Shown: positions 47,705 through 55,598 of the stretch, in pieces
Position numbering within the stretch: position 1 is the stretch's first letter
How the letters are laid out: each line of letters begins with the position of its first letter
Origin: Ilumatobacter fluminis
GTDB taxonomy: Bacteria > Actinomycetota > Acidimicrobiia > Acidimicrobiales > Ilumatobacteraceae
DNA length: 64,000 nucleotides
Assembly: GCF_004364865.1 (NCBI RefSeq)
Contig: NZ_SOAU01000001.1
Coordinates: forward strand, 2,884,001-2,948,000
Direction of reading: 5' to 3'
The notes under the pieces: model-generated
The model's database searches: none
What the model was told of the DNA's origin: nothing
What the model saw: the letters and a program-made list of their open reading frames with translations, nothing else
Position numbers and translations under genes: made by a program

Positions 47705-48010
47705 TCAGCGCGAGAGTTCGTCGACCTCCGGGTCGTACTCGGGCGATGATGCGTGCACGGCACGGAACAACAGGTGCACGGCGACCGGCAGCGTGAGGAT
47801 CAGGGCGGCGGCGGCGAGCACGAGCCGCAGCGCTCCCGACCACCCGACATCGGCGGCAGCACCGACGGCGACGATCACGAATGCGACCGGGCTCGCCTTG
47901 CCGGCGGCGTGGACACGGGCGTACGGGCTGTCGAACCGCATCAGCCCGACCGCGGCGACGAGCACGACCAGCGCGCCGAGCAGTGCAGCGACCGTTGCGA
48001 GCGGGTTCAC
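47705..48010 (-). CDS. mrpG: Na+/H+ antiporter subunit G
   Basis: 101 aa, three hydrophobic segments: LATVAALLGALVVLVAAVGL, SPVAFVIVAVGAAADVGWSG and LVLAAAALILTLPVAVHLLF. MRFDSPYARVHAAGKASPVAF is the signature of the MnhG/PhaG subunit. Start is GTG at 48010 inside the mrpF stop (GTGA overlap). It is the last gene of the mrpABCDEFG operon and belongs to the membrane complex that exchanges Na+ for protons. Confidence 0.92.
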   Translation of the reverse strand: MNPLATVAALLGALVVLVAAVGLMRFDSPYARVHAAGKASPVAFVIVAVGAAADVGWSGALRLVLAAAALILTLPVAVHLLFRAVHASSPEYDPEVDELSR

Positions 48011-48273
48011 GGCCGGGCCCCTCTCGCCTCACGCTCGATGTAACGAGTGAGCGCAACGGTCGCGGTGAAGCCGATGATCGCGATGACGACGAGCAGGTTC
48101 AGCCATGTGTCTACGCCACGATTCGCGGCATCGACCGCGATCGCCATCATCAGGCTGACCAGCAGCACGTCGAGGGCGATGATGCGGTCGGCCAAGGTGG
48201 GCCCCACGACCATGCGGGCGATCGCCAGGACGGCGGACAACCCCAGGATCGAATAGACGACGGTGACGATCAC
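48007..48273 (-). CDS. mrpF: Na+/H+ antiporter subunit F
   Basis: 88 aa, three hydrophobic segments. VLAIARMVVGPTLADRIIALDVL is the family signature (R-x-x-x-G-P-x-x-x-D-R-I-x-A-x-D), then LMMAIAVDAANRGVDTWLNL and VIAIIGFTATVALTRYIER. Start GTG overlaps the mrpE stop; its own stop overlaps mrpG. Confidence 0.92.
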   Translation of the reverse strand: MIVTVVYSILGLSAVLAIARMVVGPTLADRIIALDVLLVSLMMAIAVDAANRGVDTWLNLLVVIAIIGFTATVALTRYIEREARGARP

Positions 48274-48848
48274 GACGAGACCTCGATTCGCTCGGCTTCT
48301 GGGGTGGGCAAGGCGGCGCAGGCCAGCTCGGCGAGCCTGCGGGTGTGCGCCTCGACGTCGGCCCGTCGTTCGACGTCGAGCACGTGGAGGTAGAGCACCG
48401 ATCCGTCGGCCTCGGCCGCGACCACCGCGGTGCCGGGCGTGACGGTGATCGCGACGAACAGCAACAGGAGGTGGTGTTTCGCCGGTGCCGAGATCGGCAC
48501 GGCGATGATGCCTTCGCGTGGACGATCACCGGGTGCGACGACGGCGCGCGCGACGACCAGGGTCGACACGACCATGTCGACGGCGACCACGGCGACGAGC
48601 CGGAGCATCGGCACGCCCCGGACGCCACCTCGTCCGCTCCCGCCGACGCCGATCGTCAGCGCGACCAGGCCGACGACGATGCCGGACAGGACGTTCGCCC
48701 AGCTCACGGATCCCCACAGGGCGCACCACGCCGCCACGAGGGCAGCAAGGGTCACGAGCCGGCGCACCGTCAGCAGGTCGCTCCAGGACATGCCGTTGCG
48801 GGTCATGCGGTTGCGTGACATGCGGTTGCGGGTCGGGGGCTGCTTCAT
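48270..48848 (-). CDS. mrpE: Na+/H+ antiporter subunit E, with repetitive N terminus
   Basis: 192 aa. Membrane segments LVTLAALVAAWCALWGSVSW and LSGIVVGLVALTIGV, then MLRLVAVVAVDMVVSTLVVA and VPISAPAKHHLLLLFVAITV with TPGTAVV, the typical MnhE core. The N-terminal 20 residues (RNRMSRNRMTRNGMSW) are encoded by three 15-bp tandem repeats and contain extra methionines, so translation could begin at several points. The start at 48848 overlaps the mrpD stop (ATGA). Confidence 0.9.
   Translation of the reverse strand: MKQPPTRNRMSRNRMTRNGMSWSDLLTVRRLVTLAALVAAWCALWGSVSWANVLSGIVVGLVALTIGVGGSGRGGVRGVPMLRLVAVVAVDMVVSTLVVARAVVAPGDRPREGIIAVPISAPAKHHLLLLFVAITVTPGTAVVAAEADGSVLYLHVLDVERRADVEAHTRRLAELACAALPTPEAERIEVSS
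48790..48834 (-). repeat. Three 15-bp tandem repeats at the start of mrpE
   Basis: Units ATGCCGTTGCGGGTC, ATGCGGTTGCGTGAC and ATGCGGTTGCGGGTC (plus strand, 48790-48834). Since the unit is a multiple of three, changes in copy number would keep the frame. Confidence 0.85.
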
Positions 48849-50326
48849 CCGGACATCACCTCCGTCACGTACGGCTCCTTGTCGAGCAGCTCGGTCGCTG
48901 CTCGTTCGCTCATCTCCCACAGCGGTCCGGAGAGGACGGCGACCGCGAGGGTCACGCCGACGGCCGTCGCTGCGGCCGTCGTCATCGTGCGCCACGACGT
49001 GGCGGGCACGAGGCGCCGCTCACCGTCGTCGGGAGCGCCCCAGAACACGCCGATCCAGATCTTCACCATCGACAAGAGCGTCAGCAGGCTGCCGACGAGG
49101 GCGACGACCACGATCGCGATGGCGACGTCGTCGATGCCGGCGTCGACCAGCGCCAGCTTGGCCACGAAACCGGAGAACGGCGGCAGACCGGCGAGGCTGA
49201 GCGCAGGCAGTGCGAACAGCACTGCAACACCCGGCCGACTGGCGATCATGCCGCTGACCCGGTCGAGCGCCGAGGTCCCGCGGTCGACCTCGATCAGACC
49301 ACCGACGAGGAACAGCACCGTCTTGACCGGGATCTGGTGGACGAGGAACAGCACGGCCCCGGCGACACCGGCCACGGTGAACAGGCCGAGACCCATCAGC
49401 ATGTAGCCGATCTGGCTGACGATGTGGAACGACAAGATCCGCTTCACGTCGTCCTGTGCCAGCGCACCGGCCACGCCGACGATCATCGTCAGGCCGGCGA
49501 TCACGAGGATGAGTGGCCCGAGGGCGTCCATGTCGGTCAGCGTGTGGAACCGGATCATGACGTACACGCCGATCTTGGTGAGCAGACCGGCGAACACCGC
49601 CGTGATCGTGGTCGGCGCCGTCGGGTAGCTGTCGGGCAGCCACGAGAACAGCGGGAACATCGCCGCCTTCGTGCCGAACACGACCAGGAACCACAGCCCG
49701 ATGCCGAGGCGGACACCGTCGCTCAGGTCGGGGACCCGCTCGGCGAGCAGTGCCATGTTGACGGTGCCGGTCGCGGCGTAGACGATGGCGACGCCGATGA
49801 GGAACAGGGTCGAGGCGAACAGGTTCATCACCACGTAGGTCATGCCGGCCCGCACCTGGCCGGCGCGTCCCTGGTGGGTCAGCAGGACGTAGCTCGCCAC
49901 GAGCATCAGTTCGAAGCCGACGAACAGGGTGAACAGGTCACCGGTGAGGATCGACAAGGACACGCCGCCGGTCAGCACGAGCAGCATCGGACCGACGACG
50001 GTCGGGTCGGCGCCCATGGCCGACCGCCGCTGTCCGATGGCGAACACCTCGACGATCGTGATGGTGAGCACCGCAGCGAGCAGCACGAGCACGGCGAACG
50101 CGTCGGCGACGAGGACGATGCCGAGTTCGGGGTCCCAGCCGCCGACCCGTAGCACGACCGTGCCCTCGGCGCGCACGTGCACGAGCAACGTCGTCGCGAT
50201 GCCGGTCAGGCCGACCAGCGAGCCGAGCGTGACGACGTCGCGCCAGCGGGCGGCGGTGCGGAGCAGGAGCGCGAGCATCGCCGCCACGAGCGGGATGCCG
50301 ACGGCCAGGCCGACGAGGGTGGTCAT
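48845..50326 (-). CDS. mrpD: Na+/H+ antiporter subunit D
   Basis: 493 aa, about 14 hydrophobic segments, homologous to NuoN/NuoM. ALAQDDVKRILSFHIVSQIG and YMLMGLG are the conserved antiporter core with the helix-8 lysine/histidine region, preceded by KAAMFPLFSWLPDSYPTAPT. This subunit, with MrpA, is thought to carry proton translocation. Start overlaps the mrpC stop (ATGA), stop overlaps mrpE. Confidence 0.95.
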   Translation of the reverse strand: MTTLVGLAVGIPLVAAMLALLLRTAARWRDVVTLGSLVGLTGIATTLLVHVRAEGTVVLRVGGWDPELGIVLVADAFAVLVLLAAVLTITIVEVFAIGQRRSAMGADPTVVGPMLLVLTGGVSLSILTGDLFTLFVGFELMLVASYVLLTHQGRAGQVRAGMTYVVMNLFASTLFLIGVAIVYAATGTVNMALLAERVPDLSDGVRLGIGLWFLVVFGTKAAMFPLFSWLPDSYPTAPTTITAVFAGLLTKIGVYVMIRFHTLTDMDALGPLILVIAGLTMIVGVAGALAQDDVKRILSFHIVSQIGYMLMGLGLFTVAGVAGAVLFLVHQIPVKTVLFLVGGLIEVDRGTSALDRVSGMIASRPGVAVLFALPALSLAGLPPFSGFVAKLALVDAGIDDVAIAIVVVALVGSLLTLLSMVKIWIGVFWGAPDDGERRLVPATSWRTMTTAAATAVGVTLAVAVLSGPLWEMSERAATELLDKEPYVTEVMSG

Positions 50327-50757
50327 GTCGAGCTCCTGTTCTCGATCGTCGCGTCCCGGGCACCGGGGGCGACGGCGTACCCGATCAGGTGGTCACCGTC
50401 GGCGTCGATCGCCGGCGCCGCTATCCGGCGGTCCTCGATGTCGTCCTCGACCAGGTCGTCGCCGGTCAACTGCTGCTGGCGCCGTGCCAGTGCGAGCAGG
50501 AACAGCGTCAGGCCGAACGAGATCACGATCGCCGTCAGCGCCAACGCCTGCGGGACCGGGTTCGACATCTCGTCGGCGGTCGAGCGATCGGCGAGCGGTG
50601 GGGCCCCGTCCTCACCGCCGGCAGCGACGAGGGCGAGCACGGCCGCATGGCCGAACAACGCGAACCCGAGCACGATGCGGCTGAGCAGCCGAGACGTGAC
50701 GAGGTAGGTCCCGATCGCCGCCAAACCGGCGATCACGACGATCAACGTGGCGCTCAT
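50323..50757 (-). CDS. mrpC: Na+/H+ antiporter subunit C
   Basis: 144 aa, NuoK-like with three membrane segments: LIVVIAGLAAIGTYLVTSRL, IVLGFALFGHAAVLALVAAG and PVPQALALTAIVISFGLTLF. DPLPQALVLTAIVI-type motif (here NPVPQALALTAIVIS) is the MrpC signature. The tail of about 35 residues is charged and longer than in Bacillus MrpC. Overlaps mrpB and mrpD by ATGA on both ends. Confidence 0.93.
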   Translation of the reverse strand: MSATLIVVIAGLAAIGTYLVTSRLLSRIVLGFALFGHAAVLALVAAGGEDGAPPLADRSTADEMSNPVPQALALTAIVISFGLTLFLLALARRQQQLTGDDLVEDDIEDRRIAAPAIDADGDHLIGYAVAPGARDATIENRSST

Positions 50758-51182
50758 GAGCGATCCTCTCCGGCGAGTTCGTCGCCACCGAGTGCGAGCA
50801 GGACGGCGACGACCAGGCCGACGACGATGAAGGTGACGCCGAGGTCGAAGATCAGCGCCGTGCCGCTCTTGACCGTGCCGAGCACGGGAAGGTCGGCGTC
50901 GACGACGACCTGATCGAGCAGGGCGTCACCGAACAACAGCGGGGCGATCGCGACCACCCCGGCGAGCACGCCGCCGATCCCCATGAGAACCACGGGGCGA
51001 CGCGGTGCCGACAGTCCGACGACGATGCGCAGCGCGGCGACGGCTCCCAGGACCAACCCGGCGCCGAAGCCGCCGCCCGGCTGGTTGTGCCCGGCGAAGA
51101 ACAGGTAGGCGGCGACGACGACGGCGAGCGGGCTGGCGAGCTCGATCCCCGTGCGGACGACGATGGAACGTTCGGCGATCAT
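50754..51182 (-). CDS. mrpB: Na+/H+ antiporter subunit B
   Basis: 142 aa, four hydrophobic segments. GHNQPGGGFGAGLVLGAVAA is the MnhB-domain signature, followed by LPVLGTVKSGTALIFDLGVT and FIVVGLVVAVLLAL. Start overlaps the mrpA stop and stop overlaps mrpC, so all seven subunits are coupled. Confidence 0.93.
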   Translation of the reverse strand: MIAERSIVVRTGIELASPLAVVVAAYLFFAGHNQPGGGFGAGLVLGAVAALRIVVGLSAPRRPVVLMGIGGVLAGVVAIAPLLFGDALLDQVVVDADLPVLGTVKSGTALIFDLGVTFIVVGLVVAVLLALGGDELAGEDRS

Positions 51183-53497
51183 GACGCCACCTCCGTGAGT
51201 TCGCGCTCCGTCTCGGGAGCGACTCGATCCCGTTGTCCCGCCTGCTCGTCACGACCGGCGCGAGCGAGTGACACGACACCGACCGAGACGGCGACGAGCA
51301 CGATGATCTCGCCCCACGTGTCGAGCGCTCGGATGTCGGTGAGCACGACGTTGACGATGTTGTTGCCGCCACCGGTCTCGACCGACTCCTCGACGAGGGC
51401 CTGGCGCGGCGGTGCGCCGGTCGGACGACTCCCGGCCGCGGCGAGCGCAGCGGCGACCGCGATGCCGACGAGCACCGACACGGCGATGCGCACCTGGCGC
51501 CACAGCAGACCGAAGCGAGGGAAGTCGCGGCCGAGGTGACCGAGGCCGACGACGAAGCCGACGACGATCACGGTCTCGACGAGGAGCTGGGTGAGTGCCA
51601 GGTCGGGTGATCCCTGCACGACGAACAATCCGGCGACGGCGAACCCGACGGCGCCGAGCCCGAGCGCCGCCCCGAGCCGGTTCGGAACCAGCGTCAGGGC
51701 GATCGCAGCACCGAGCACGATCGCTCCGAGCACCACCTGGGCGGGGCTGTCCCACGGGCGGAGTGTGTCGACGTCGATCTCGGTCACGAACGGCACCGCC
51801 GCGAGCGCGGCGACGACCGCGGCCGTGAGCACGTAGCCGGGCAACGAGCCGTGTTGCACCACGCCGGCGACCCGGCGGGCGGAGCGCAGGGTCACCGTGA
51901 CCATTGCGTCGACGGCATCGGCGCCGAGCGGGCGCGGAGCCGCCGAGTCACGACGCACCAGGACGAGGCCGAGGACCGCGCCGGCCGCGACGATCGCCAT
52001 CGAGATCGCGAACGCCGTGGTGAGCCCCGGCCAGCGCAGCAGCGTGTAGGCCTCGGCCGCCGGGTCGATGCGGACAGCGCCGGCCCGGACCCGATCGCTG
52101 ACCACGCCGAGCAGGACGAAGCCGACGAGGCTTGCCAGACCGAGGAGTCCGGACACGACCGTCATGGCGGGGCGGCGAGGGGCGACCGTCAGCCCGTCCG
52201 GCTCCGTACCGGCGAACACGCCGAGCAGGAACCGGAGCGTGTAGGCAACGGTGAGCACCGAGCCGCCGACGACGCCGGCGAGCAGGACCGCCCGCTCGGC
52301 GCCGCCGAGCTGCAGCGCGGCCTCGATGCCCGCTTCCTTGGCGGCGAAACCGAGCAGGGGCGGCACCCCGGCCATCGAGAGGCCGGACAGGACAGCGACA
52401 CCGAACGCGACGGGCATCGATCGCCACAAGCCGCCGAGCTCGGCGATCTCTCGAGTGCCGGTGCGCACGTCGATCTCGCCGACGACCATGAACAGCGCCG
52501 CTTTGAACACGGCGTGGGCGACGAGGATCGAGACGGCGGCGAAGGTGGCCTTTCCCTCGCCGACGCCGAGCAGGGCGACCATCAGGCCCAGCTGCGACAC
52601 CGTGCCCCAGGCGAGGATGAGCTTGGCGTCGGTCTGGCGGAGTGCACCGATCGCTCCCCACAGCATCGTCGCGAGACCGACACCGACGACCAGTGGCAGC
52701 CACGGCCCGGTGTCGCCGAGCGCCGGTTGCAGCACGGCGAGCAGGATGATGCCCGCCTTCACCATCGTGGCCGAGTGCAGGTATGCGCTCACCGGCGTCG
52801 GCGCAGCCATCGCGCCCGGCAGCCACACGTGGAACGGCACCTGTGCCGACTTGGTGGCGGCCGCGACGACCACCAACACCGCGGCGACCGCTCCGGTGGT
52901 GCCGCCGACGGGCTGCAGCGCACCGAGACGTGTCGAACCGTCGGCTCCGGTGAGTACGAGGAGTCCGGCGAGGAGGACGAGTCCGCCCGCGGCGGTGATG
53001 AGCAGCGCTCGGCGGGCGGCGATCTGCGCCGTGGGGTCGGCGTACTTGTGACCGACGAGCAGGAACGACGTGACCGAGGTCATCTCCCAGAACACGAACA
53101 GCGTCCAGACCGAGTCGGCCCACACGAGGCCGAGCATCGACCCCGAGAAGGCGAGCAGGGTGGCGGCGAAGCGTCCGAGGCCTGCGGCCCCCGACGAGAA
53201 GTAGCCGGCGGCGTACACGAAGACGGCGACGCCGATACCGGCGACGATCAACCCGAGCAGCGCCGTCAACGCATCGATCCGGAACGCCACCTCGAGGCCG
53301 AGCCCCTCGACCCACGTCACCGACGCGGTGAGCGAATCACCGGCGGCGAGCCACACGATCGAGCAGACCGACGTGAGGGCGGGCGGCACCGCTGCGATCG
53401 AGAACGCGGTGCGACCCGACCACGGCCGGGAGGCCAGCACGAGCACGGCGACGCCGAACGACGCGAGCAGGAGCCAGATGATCGAGGAATCGCTCAT
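51179..53497 (-). CDS. mrpA: Na+/H+ antiporter subunit A
   Basis: 772 aa, about 20 hydrophobic segments. The N-terminal two-thirds is NuoL-like (FWEMTSVTSFLLVGHKYADP, KSAQVPFHVWLPGAMAAPTP, YLHSATMVKAGIILLAVLQP, KLILAWGTVSQLGLMVALLG). The C-terminal third has the DUF4040/MnhB-like part (GSPDLALTQLLVETVIVVGF and TGGGNNIVNVVLTDIRALDT). First gene of mrpABCDEFG. Start placed at the ATG 53497; the frame stays open to 53572, but that would include the operator-like repeat. Divergent from the 2-phosphoglycerate-kinase operon. Confidence 0.94.
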   Translation of the reverse strand: MSDSSIIWLLLASFGVAVLVLASRPWSGRTAFSIAAVPPALTSVCSIVWLAAGDSLTASVTWVEGLGLEVAFRIDALTALLGLIVAGIGVAVFVYAAGYFSSGAAGLGRFAATLLAFSGSMLGLVWADSVWTLFVFWEMTSVTSFLLVGHKYADPTAQIAARRALLITAAGGLVLLAGLLVLTGADGSTRLGALQPVGGTTGAVAAVLVVVAAATKSAQVPFHVWLPGAMAAPTPVSAYLHSATMVKAGIILLAVLQPALGDTGPWLPLVVGVGLATMLWGAIGALRQTDAKLILAWGTVSQLGLMVALLGVGEGKATFAAVSILVAHAVFKAALFMVVGEIDVRTGTREIAELGGLWRSMPVAFGVAVLSGLSMAGVPPLLGFAAKEAGIEAALQLGGAERAVLLAGVVGGSVLTVAYTLRFLLGVFAGTEPDGLTVAPRRPAMTVVSGLLGLASLVGFVLLGVVSDRVRAGAVRIDPAAEAYTLLRWPGLTTAFAISMAIVAAGAVLGLVLVRRDSAAPRPLGADAVDAMVTVTLRSARRVAGVVQHGSLPGYVLTAAVVAALAAVPFVTEIDVDTLRPWDSPAQVVLGAIVLGAAIALTLVPNRLGAALGLGAVGFAVAGLFVVQGSPDLALTQLLVETVIVVGFVVGLGHLGRDFPRFGLLWRQVRIAVSVLVGIAVAAALAAAGSRPTGAPPRQALVEESVETGGGNNIVNVVLTDIRALDTWGEIIVLVAVSVGVVSLARAGRDEQAGQRDRVAPETERELTEVAS

Positions 53498-53698
53498 GCC
53501 GGGGGCCGCCGGAGGGGGCTCGCTTCGGTGCGCATGGCGAAAGGTTATCTCGTAATAGCTATTTTCAAACATAGCTATTATGATCTACGTCATTCACATG
53601 ACCTGTTCAGCCCGTCATGACCGATCGGCCGAGCGCCCGCCAAACGATCGCTCGGATCCGCGGCATCGACGCCGACAGGACGAACGAAGGAGACGCAC
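53498..53698. promoter_or_regulatory. AT-rich divergent control region between mrpA and the 2-phosphoglycerate-kinase operon
   Basis: 201 bp. The part from about 53540 to 53605 is markedly richer in A and T than anything else near it. TATTAT at 53576-53581 is a fair -10 element for the rightward operon and overlaps the inverted repeat. TTGAAA on the minus strand (53563-53568) could serve mrpA. A strong GAAGGAG precedes the kinase start. Confidence 0.6.
53553..53580. promoter_or_regulatory. Perfect inverted repeat, probable operator of the mrpA / kinase divergon
   Basis: TAATAGCTA (53553-53561) and TAGCTATTA (53572-53580) form a perfect 9-bp dyad with a 10-bp spacer. The size and spacing suit a winged-helix dimer such as the regulator encoded at 55221, the last gene of the rightward operon. 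The right half overlaps the -10-like TATTAT. Confidence 0.75.
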
Positions 53699-54604
53699 AT
53701 GCCCATCGACCTGGCTTCCGACGACCCGACGCTGCGGATCACGAACCGTCACGGCGAGGTCCTCCCCTTCTCGCGAGGCATCATGGCGACCAGCCTGTTG
53801 GCGACCGGCCTCCACACCGAAGAGGCGTACCGATTGGCGTCGATCGTGCAGGAGTCGCTCCACGACGGTCGTGCACGTCACGACTCCGACGAACTCGTCG
53901 AGGTCGCGTGCGACGTGCTCCGAGCACAACCGGAGGGCGAGCAGATCGTCCGCCGTTGGCTCGCCTGGCGTGCCGTTCGTCGCAGCGGTCGGCCCGTCGT
54001 CATCGTGCTCGGCGGTGCGCCGGGTGCCGGCAAGAGCACGCTGGCGACGCGTCTCGCCGTCCGGCTCGAGATCACCCGGCTGGTCACGACCGACGCCATC
54101 CGCGAGGTGCTCCGCACCGTCGTGCCCGCCGCCGTGCTCCCCGAGCTCCACGCATCCACGTTCGAGATCGTCGACACGACGAAGGCCGACCCGTTCGTGG
54201 CGTTCGACCGTCAGTGCGAGGCGGTGTCGAACGCCCTCGGCGCCGTCGCATCGCGACTGGTCACCGAGAACCGATCCGTCATCGCCGAAGGCGTGCACCT
54301 CCGTCCCGGCGCACTCACCGAGGCTCTGTCCGATCACCCGATGCGACCCGTGGTCGTCGAGCGGGTCGTGATCGCTCCACCGTCGGTCCATCGATCGAAC
54401 CTCGCGAGCCGACGGAACGCCGAGCCGCTCCGCGACGGCGACCGTCACCTCCAGCGGTTCGATCACATCACGGCGATCCAAGATCACCTCGTCGCCCAGG
54501 CCAAGACGGCCGGCATCCCCACGATGAACGTCGCCGAGTCCACCGCCCTCACCCAAGACCTCGTCGGTGAGGTCGTCGAACGGCTCGGCCAGGTGGCGGC
54601 GTGA
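53699..54604 (+). CDS. 2-phosphoglycerate kinase-like protein with ATP-cone domain
   Basis: 301 aa. Residues about 10-90 form an ATP-cone (LRITNRHGEVLPFSRGIMAT, GLHTEEAYRLASIVQESL), then a P-loop GGAPGAGKST (105-114) and TTDAIREVLRT, the TDxIREV motif of archaeal 2-phosphoglycerate kinases. Those convert 2-phosphoglycerate to 2,3-bisphosphoglycerate, a precursor of the osmolyte cyclic 2,3-diphosphoglycerate. A bacterial role is not settled. GAAGGAG is 9 nt upstream of the ATG. It leads an operon with an HAD hydrolase and a regulator, all coupled, and is divergent from the Mrp antiporter. No cyclic-diphosphoglycerate synthetase is in the window. Confidence 0.78.
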   Translation: MPIDLASDDPTLRITNRHGEVLPFSRGIMATSLLATGLHTEEAYRLASIVQESLHDGRARHDSDELVEVACDVLRAQPEGEQIVRRWLAWRAVRRSGRPVVIVLGGAPGAGKSTLATRLAVRLEITRLVTTDAIREVLRTVVPAAVLPELHASTFEIVDTTKADPFVAFDRQCEAVSNALGAVASRLVTENRSVIAEGVHLRPGALTEALSDHPMRPVVVERVVIAPPSVHRSNLASRRNAEPLRDGDRHLQRFDHITAIQDHLVAQAKTAGIPTMNVAESTALTQDLVGEVVERLGQVAA

Positions 54605-55224
54605 CGGCGTCGGCAACCACGAAGCAGCGCATTCGCAGCGTCGACACCAGCGGGCCGTCGTCGGCGGCGTGGGGCGACGACACCGTGCTCGTCTTCGATG
54701 CGCACGGCGTCGTCCTGAACCGGGCGTTCCCGACGTTCGTCCATCGACACGCCGCGGCACGGGGTGACGATCCCCGTCGCGTGTGGCGACGATGGCGCCG
54801 ACACGTTCGTCTCGATTGCTGGGAGGGGCGCCTCGAGGTCGAGGAGGCGTGGAACCGTCTGTTCCCGGGCGACGACCCGGCCACGCTCGATCGTGGACTC
54901 GCAGCGAGCTATGCGCCCGGACCGATCTTCGACCTGGTCGCGAACTCCGACCGACGGGCCTGGCTCCTCAGCAATCACCGGTCCGAGTGGCTGCTCCCCC
55001 AACTCGAGCGCTTCGGCCTCGAGCACCGGTTCGAAAGGGTGCTCGTGTCGGACGTGCTGGGCGTCGCCAAACCGGACCGCGAAGTGTTCCGCGTCGTTCG
55101 GCGCCGAGCCGGCCACGGACGCATCGTGCTCTTCGACGATTCGTCACGCAATGTGTCGACGGCGCGCCAGGTCGGCATCGAGGCGTACCAGGTCGTCGAC
55201 GTCACCGCTGGGAGGACCGAATGA
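54601..55224 (+). CDS. HAD-superfamily hydrolase
   Basis: 207 aa. Motif I is VLVFDAHGVVLN (nucleophile Asp in FDAHG; the second motif aspartate is replaced by His, similar to the FDAYG of haloacid dehalogenases), motif II WLLSNHR, motif III KPDREVFRVV and motif IV IVLFDDSSRNVSTARQVGI. A cap helix region lies between. The GTG start at 54601 overlaps the kinase stop (GTGA). It may act on a phospho-compound made or used by the kinase next door; that is inference. Confidence 0.8.
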   Translation: MTASATTKQRIRSVDTSGPSSAAWGDDTVLVFDAHGVVLNRAFPTFVHRHAAARGDDPRRVWRRWRRHVRLDCWEGRLEVEEAWNRLFPGDDPATLDRGLAASYAPGPIFDLVANSDRRAWLLSNHRSEWLLPQLERFGLEHRFERVLVSDVLGVAKPDREVFRVVRRRAGHGRIVLFDDSSRNVSTARQVGIEAYQVVDVTAGRTE

Positions 55225-55598
55225 ATGACACGAAACGTCGACGTTCTGATCGCTACGATCGATCGACGATGTCGTCCGCCACCGAAACCGACACCGACAC
55301 CGACGCCGGGGACGGCCGGCCGTCCTGGACGTTCCTGACGAACCACGCCCACGTGCTCGTCGCGATCGGCCAAGATCCCGAGATGCGCCAGCGCGACATC
55401 GCCGACGCCGTCGGCATCACGCCGGGGGCCGTCACCCGGATCCTCGCCGAGCTCGAGGCGTCGGGGTGCGTCACCCACGAACGCGTCGGTCGCCGGAACC
55501 GGTACCACATCAATCCCGAAGTCCACTTCCGTCACCCGCTCGAGTCCGAGGTGACGATCGGGCAACTGATCGAACTCACCGACGGCATCATCGACTGA
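55221..55598 (+). CDS. Winged-helix transcriptional regulator (MarR/ArsR-like)
   Basis: 125 aa. A charged N-terminal tail of about 30 residues with alternating Thr and Asp, then SWTFLTNHAHVLVAIGQDPE, MRQRDIADAVGITPGAVTRI and LAELEASGCVTHERVGRRNR, a helix-turn-helix with a wing ending YHINPEVHFRHPLESEVTIG. GGGAGGA lies just upstream, and the start overlaps the HAD stop. No metal-binding cysteines are visible, so it likely senses a small molecule or ions indirectly. Being last in the operon, it is the natural candidate for the operator at 53553-53580. Confidence 0.8.
   Translation: MNDTKRRRSDRYDRSTMSSATETDTDTDAGDGRPSWTFLTNHAHVLVAIGQDPEMRQRDIADAVGITPGAVTRILAELEASGCVTHERVGRRNRYHINPEVHFRHPLESEVTIGQLIELTDGIID

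Follow-up and report, generated by a model that had tools for sequence, protein, structure and literature searches.

A small winged-helix protein as a putative shared regulator of an mrp antiporter operon and a kinase–hydrolase pair in Ilumatobacter fluminis

The 64,000-nucleotide stretch of the Ilumatobacter fluminis genome analyzed here (the window) encodes a small winged-helix (wHTH) protein which is probably a local regulator, putatively also of its own gene, acting on two divergent operons through an inverted repeat that lies between them. One of these operons encodes an Mrp antiporter, the other a kinase, a HAD hydrolase and the wHTH protein itself; the trigger would be inorganic carbon, pH or Na+, with the kinase–HAD pair recruited into the response. 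A preliminary description of the sequence had proposed that one protein controls both Na+ extrusion and the production of 2,3-bisphosphoglycerate. Control of both operons through a shared operator remains plausible in light of the conserved linkage of regulator and mrp and of the dyads found in relatives, but the physiology needs rewriting.

The divergent operons and the inverted repeat

The source genome is a single contig of 4,775,416 bases. On the minus strand of the window, a complete mrpABCDEFG operon (47705..53497) is headed by mrpA (51179-53497, start at 53497), whose product is a real MrpA in both the Pfam and the NCBIfam scan and contains antiporter and MbhD/MbhE-like domains. The remaining genes were named by order and sequence: mrpB (50754-51182), mrpC (50323-50757) and mrpD (48845-50326) match mrp genes of relatives, and mrpE (about 48270-48850), mrpF (48007-48273) and mrpG (47705-48010) are putative assignments from order and sequence. 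Divergent from mrpA, on the plus strand, are a 2-phosphoglycerate-kinase-like P-loop kinase with an ATP-cone-like N-terminal part (53699..54604), a HAD-IA hydrolase (54601..55224) and the wHTH regulator (55221..55598). These three genes are translationally coupled, each stop overlapping the next start, as had been described for a fully coupled trio beside mrpA. The assignments of HAD hydrolase and winged-helix regulator likewise hold, with scores above the cut-offs of PF00702 (29.0 versus 26.4 bits) and PF12802 (MarR_2; 42.7 versus 27 bits).

The putative operator (53553..53580) lies upstream of both operons, 55 bp from mrpA and 118 bp from the kinase, and reads TAATAGCTAT-TTTCAAAC-ATAGCTATTA. 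It is the same site as the perfect 9-bp inverted repeat with a 10-bp spacer noted earlier in this AT-rich gap, which is real and even longer than stated: as TAATAGCTAT-N8-ATAGCTATTA, it has two exactly matching 10-bp arms around an 8-bp spacer. No other AT-rich perfect inverted repeat occurs in the window (arms of at least 9 bp, spacer of at most 14 bp, at least 60% AT), and when the intergenic gap was shuffled 2000 times, only 40 of the shuffled sequences (2%) held any 9-bp repeat. The dyad is unique in the 4.78-Mb genome with 3 mismatches allowed, and the 10-mer AATAGCTATT has one match in the whole genome, at the dyad. The GC content of the surrounding 60 bp (53540-53599) is 30%, versus ~70% in the neighboring sequence. 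A sigma-70 consensus scan of the mrpA–kinase gap found no promoter. Counting against the regulatory reading, 28 bp is long for a single small wHTH dimer. Elsewhere in the genome (G000:C1:3111663-3113948), a second, divergent mrp operon lies downstream of a fumarase-like gene, without a wHTH gene. This operon and both carbonic-anhydrase genes of the genome were considered as further targets and dropped, as none of them carries such a dyad.

The regulator family and its genomic neighbors

Beyond its MarR_2 match, the wHTH protein falls short of the ArsR/SmtB model NF033788 (28.8 bits versus a cut-off of 55), and no LysR match is listed in the Pfam and NCBIfam scans, setting it apart from CcmR/NdhR-type regulators. 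Its structure model (pLDDT 77, with low confidence in the N-terminal 30 residues) has MarR/ArsR folds as top PDB matches; a ligand hint was sought in the model and fold matches, and none was seen. Family members are roughly 95 to 125 aa long and share the signature WTFLTNHxHVL...GRRNxY...LRHPxE. Residues W36, H42, H44, R104 and H105 are conserved in 95-97% of 138 copies and lie outside the DNA-reading helix, forming a candidate sensing site. The recognition helix starts with GITPGA in five Mrp-linked copies, including that of the window, and with GITERA or similar in most others.

Among 101 genomes of the host family, homologues of the wHTH protein were found in 42 and of the kinase in one, the source genome; a wHTH profile matched 80 of 221 genomes of this family. 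In a tree of 97 copies, the window protein falls in a clade of 14 (support 99/96, values that are rough because the protein is short) containing all 12 Mrp-linked copies; of the remaining two, L125 adjoins DabBA and L139 (genome G050) shares a contig with mrpD. In five genomes (G012, G064, G038, G054 and G019), the wHTH gene and mrpA diverge without an intervening kinase or HAD gene, a carbonic anhydrase lying between them in G012 and an exchanger-like gene in G064; in three more (G017, G532 and G533), the wHTH gene is placed after the end of the mrp operon. A carbonic anhydrase immediately adjoins the wHTH gene in G012, G038, G054 and G019. The regulator–mrp linkage is conserved across Acidimicrobiia, and the wHTH gene, not the kinase, is the ancient partner of mrp. 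The neighborhood envisaged in the preliminary description is thus conserved in part: the regulator–mrp pairing recurs, but kinase–HAD membership is rare, and the quartet of kinase, HAD, wHTH and mrp, rejected as a general arrangement, occurs only in the source genome and in a second Ilumatobacter (G529). The dyad expected in relatives is also not conserved as such, the exact TAATAGCTA half-site being present only in the source genome; the G064 locus (L035) keeps a single ATAGCTATT.

Two further arrangements were observed. In G012 (L034, 4292000-4304000), the wHTH gene and a beta-carbonic anhydrase lie between two tandem mrp operons, the carbonic anhydrase immediately preceding mrpA on the same strand. 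In G064 (L035) and G050 (L139), a Na+/Ca2+ exchanger gene, Pfam-confirmed in G050 only, lies directly upstream of the wHTH gene on the same strand.

Across the wHTH family, neighbors were scored within a 2.5 kb radius using Mrp, SbtA, DabAB, beta-carbonic anhydrase, NHE, isocitrate dehydrogenase and other cation-transporter genes as markers. Such markers accompany 83/96 copies in the host family and 35/42 in other Acidimicrobiia, or, more strictly, 70/96 and 29/42 without the isocitrate dehydrogenase and cation-transporter markers, which were added after inspection of unlinked cases. As a control, 15 loci chosen around an unrelated gene produced a single marker match. The 96 host-family copies in the loci examined lie near SbtA (52, of which 49 within 150 bp), Mrp (12), isocitrate dehydrogenase (10), DabAB (3), a Na/Ca exchanger, P-type ATPase or SLC12 gene (3), carbonic anhydrase (2), NHE (1) or none (13). 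For the 42 copies in other Acidimicrobiia, the neighbors are Mrp (21), Dab (4), a cation ATPase, Na/Ca exchanger or SLC12 gene (4), SbtA (2), carbonic anhydrase (2), isocitrate dehydrogenase (2) or none (7). Of 20 copies in other Actinomycetota, 8 are linked and 12 are not; the five that come from one genus (g217), with genomes of 8-10 Mb, are all unlinked. Pfam scans of representatives confirm DabA, Sbt_1, Pro_CA, Iso_dh and Na_Ca_ex. These neighbors point to inorganic carbon, Na+/H+ and cation balance as the theme of the family, in place of the counter-ion or osmolyte pathway based on 2,3-bisphosphoglycerate that had been suggested at first. Copies without a transporter neighbor often adjoin isocitrate dehydrogenase (Iso_dh and Isocitrate_DH_C_bact; L156, L165, L182, L191, L246, L281 and L282), a CO2-releasing or CO2-fixing step.

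Dyads of similar design precede wHTH genes in relatives. Among 32 non-redundant SbtA loci, 17 carry a dyad with a gap of 8 bp upstream of the wHTH gene, versus 1.2 expected (8-bp arms, at most one mismatch). Even gaps occur in excess and odd ones near expectation, a pattern that a single even-centered dyad predicts. Examples are AATACATGA-N8-TCATGTATT, AATACATGATATTGATATCATGTATT (L178 and L181), ATACATGAAATATGTGTCATGTAT (L129) and ATACCTGAAATCTGTATCAGGTAT (L141). Written as AATAGCTAT-N8-ATAGCTATT, the window dyad has the same 9-8-9 layout and the same AATA ends, with different inner bases, and we infer that it corresponds to the dyads of the SbtA loci. A common 9-8-9 dyad was looked for in 8 non-redundant Mrp-group loci, and none was found.

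The kinase–HAD pair

The kinase aligns to 2-phosphoglycerate kinase models over residues 17-298, nearly its full length, with scores under the NCBIfam cut-offs (NF003259, 200.9 versus 343 bits; NF008994, 201.8 versus 603 bits), and reaches only 42 bits against mevalonate-3-phosphate 5-kinase. It carries the Walker A motif GGAPGAGKST, and its model (pLDDT 88) adopts the P-loop fold of small-molecule kinases over residues 94-300 (Z about 14), preceded by a separate N-terminal alpha/beta region. Over residues 13-95, the ATP-cone family PF03477 scores 19.4 bits versus a cut-off of 25.8, and a search of solved structures with the kinase sequence returned only P-loop generics. Of the ATP-cone 2-phosphoglycerate kinase named in the preliminary description, the P-loop fold and 2-phosphoglycerate kinase as the nearest curated family survive, with both scores under their cut-offs. 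As the 2-phosphoglycerate kinase match is far under its cut-offs and the mevalonate-3-phosphate 5-kinase match weaker still, 2,3-bisphosphoglycerate is a candidate product and not a result. In the HAD hydrolase, motif I reads D33-x-H35, not D-x-D, in all four aligned homologues (54601-55224 of the window, L049, L050 and L051), in which the other motif residues S124, K157 and D179-D180 are invariant. The hydrolase gene adjoins the kinase in 4/5 subfamily members, and their functions suggest a make-and-remove pair.

Besides the copy in G529, kinase relatives with at least 50% identity were found in three MAGs: one of Acidimicrobiia (69%; NuoF-kinase-HAD on a contig that stops about 140 bp past HAD), one of Planctomycetota, with a kinase-HAD pair, and one of Bauldia, with the kinase only. 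Class-wide (395 genomes), 17 other homologues form a distant subfamily at about 28-40% identity; 15 of them have long flanks, and no HAD, wHTH or mrp gene lies nearby in any of these. From this distribution, the kinase–HAD pair is apparently a rare accessory. A stand-alone NuoF-like gene (Complex1_51K and NADH_4Fe-4S) adjoins the kinase at L049 (2462-4072) and L050 (6478-7905).

The cluster in the second Ilumatobacter (G529; loci L050/L120 on a contig of 26,913 bases) is ordered NuoF-like(-), kinase(+), HAD(+), wHTH(-) and mrpA(+), and its mrp is a different paralogue, with an MrpA that matches the window's at 45%. Its kinase promoter carries AATAGGTCTTTTGTGTTTACCTCTT, and its mrpA–wHTH gap carries GACCTATT, the reverse complement of AATAGGTC. 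Across seven genomes, AATAGGT-N9..12-ACCTMTT has only two occurrences, in the kinase promoter of G529 and in the mrpA–wHTH gap of G038; as the pattern was built from these same two sites, its weight rests on their uniqueness and not on pattern discovery. Between HAD and wHTH, a short frame (L050 9622-9780) resembles the N-terminus of the carbonic anhydrase neighboring wHTH in relatives, possibly a decayed carbonic anhydrase.

Regulatory model, alternatives and known parallels

In the model we favor, the 55221 protein would regulate locally, most probably by repression: one dimer (or two) of this winged-helix protein would occupy the palindrome between the divergent promoters, probably overlapping them, and so control both mrpA-G and kinase-HAD-wHTH; with its own operon among the targets, the regulator is proposed to autoregulate. 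Since the family is tied to Na+/H+, bicarbonate and CO2 genes, the status of inorganic carbon, pH or Na+ is the probable trigger, perhaps sensed via the family-conserved histidines H42, H44 and H105. The kinase and HAD hydrolase may then, as recruited accessories, form and break down a phosphorylated metabolite, with 2,3-bisphosphoglycerate as one candidate.

Given the rarity of the kinase–HAD pair, its placement could be a chance insertion, and the wHTH protein might regulate mrp with the pair as co-transcribed passengers between operator and regulator gene, without a role in the response. Such an origin would account for the kinase occurring in one of 101 host-family genomes, for the nearest wHTH relatives (G012 and G064) as well as G038, G054 and G019 pairing regulator and mrp without it, and for its relatives on Planctomycetota and Bauldia contigs without mrp. 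It is nevertheless rather unlikely, though well above negligible, as G529 has the pair beside wHTH and another mrp paralogue in a rearranged order, with the dyad of the G038 mrpA–wHTH gap in its kinase promoter, and as all three window genes are translationally coupled. We also give a low probability to a salt-stress switch in which 2,3-bisphosphoglycerate made by the kinase, cyclised or not, serves as an anionic osmolyte or balances K+ as its counter-ion. In its favor, 2-phosphoglycerate kinases are the closest match of the kinase (201 versus 42 bits); these enzymes open the pathway to cyclic 2,3-DPG and are K+-activated in Methanothermus (PMC10690619), and Mrp extrudes Na+. However, the curated cut-offs of 343 and 603 are far from reached, cyclic 2,3-DPG has been reported only from hyperthermophilic methanogens (PMC10690619), and the family-wide neighbors of wHTH are mainly inorganic-carbon genes. 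That another regulator binds the dyad, or that the dyad works as a hairpin in RNA or DNA, with wHTH acting elsewhere, would agree with the unconserved half-site and with the promoter hexamers not found in the gap, but seems improbable for a dyad with a single genome copy, at the head of the wHTH operon, when related wHTH genes carry dyads of similar size and layout; a terminator role makes no sense where the flanking genes diverge.

Few studies have addressed the control of bicarbonate uptake and CO2 hydration in non-cyanobacterial, mostly heterotrophic actinobacteria. The relevance of inorganic-carbon control in the class is indicated by a report of an Acidimicrobiia strain with chemolithoautotrophy and very high carbonic anhydrase expression (PMC11697166). 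More speculatively, and with somewhat less than even confidence, the wHTH proteins may constitute an undescribed Actinomycetota family of inorganic-carbon/pH sensors that read CO2, bicarbonate or Na+, perhaps via H42, H44 and H105, and that use long dyads to switch the loci of SbtA, DabAB, Mrp, carbonic anhydrase or isocitrate dehydrogenase, with a bisphosphoglycerate-type cycle of kinase and HAD as a further target in some Ilumatobacter. The control of the mrp and kinase operons proposed above would in itself point to an unrecognized regulator of carbon-dioxide and ion balance from an uncharacterized actinobacterial family. With SbtA, DabAB, Mrp and carbonic anhydrase genes as neighbors, this family offers a direct handle on bicarbonate and CO2 control, a question made testable by the operator-like dyads.

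The regulatory logic resembles that of Synechocystis CcmR/NdhR, a LysR-type factor whose targets include the gene of the Na+/HCO3- symporter SbtA, CO2-uptake genes and an Mrp-like mnh operon, the presumed source of the Na+ gradient that SbtA uses (PMC4390856). CcmR has a wider regulon, whereas the small winged-helix protein is apparently local, and SbtA, Dab and Mrp loci each have their own wHTH copy, in different genomes. With local MarR and ArsR/SmtB repressors it shares a small winged-helix form, a palindrome in an AT-rich divergent gap and a position within the controlled operon; it differs in falling outside the named subfamilies tested, in its WTFLTNHxHVL / LRHPxE signature and in its linkage to inorganic-carbon and cation genes. 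A literature search, with most subscription papers outside its reach, showed among the papers listed no regulator of MarR/ArsR type for SbtA, Dab or Mrp, nor any in Actinomycetota for the DabAB/MpsAB, SbtA and beta-carbonic anhydrase genes. The inorganic-carbon toolkit of DabAB/MpsAB, SbtA and beta-carbonic anhydrase (PMC10880623, PMC6689103) matches the family-wide neighbors of wHTH, and the toolkit review does not contain the word ‘regulator’. The kinase recalls the 2-phosphoglycerate kinase of the cyclic 2,3-DPG pathway in Methanothermus fervidus, the nearest curated family, in being a P-loop kinase with an ATP-cone-like N-terminal part, and departs from it in scoring under the cut-offs, in its bacterial context and in its HAD hydrolase partner; the pair offers a place to seek bacterial use of 2-phosphoglycerate-kinase-like chemistry. 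Near the Planctomycetota kinase–HAD pair lies a LysR gene (L051 5961-6863), NhaR-like (Na+/H+ antiporter regulator) by sequence appearance.
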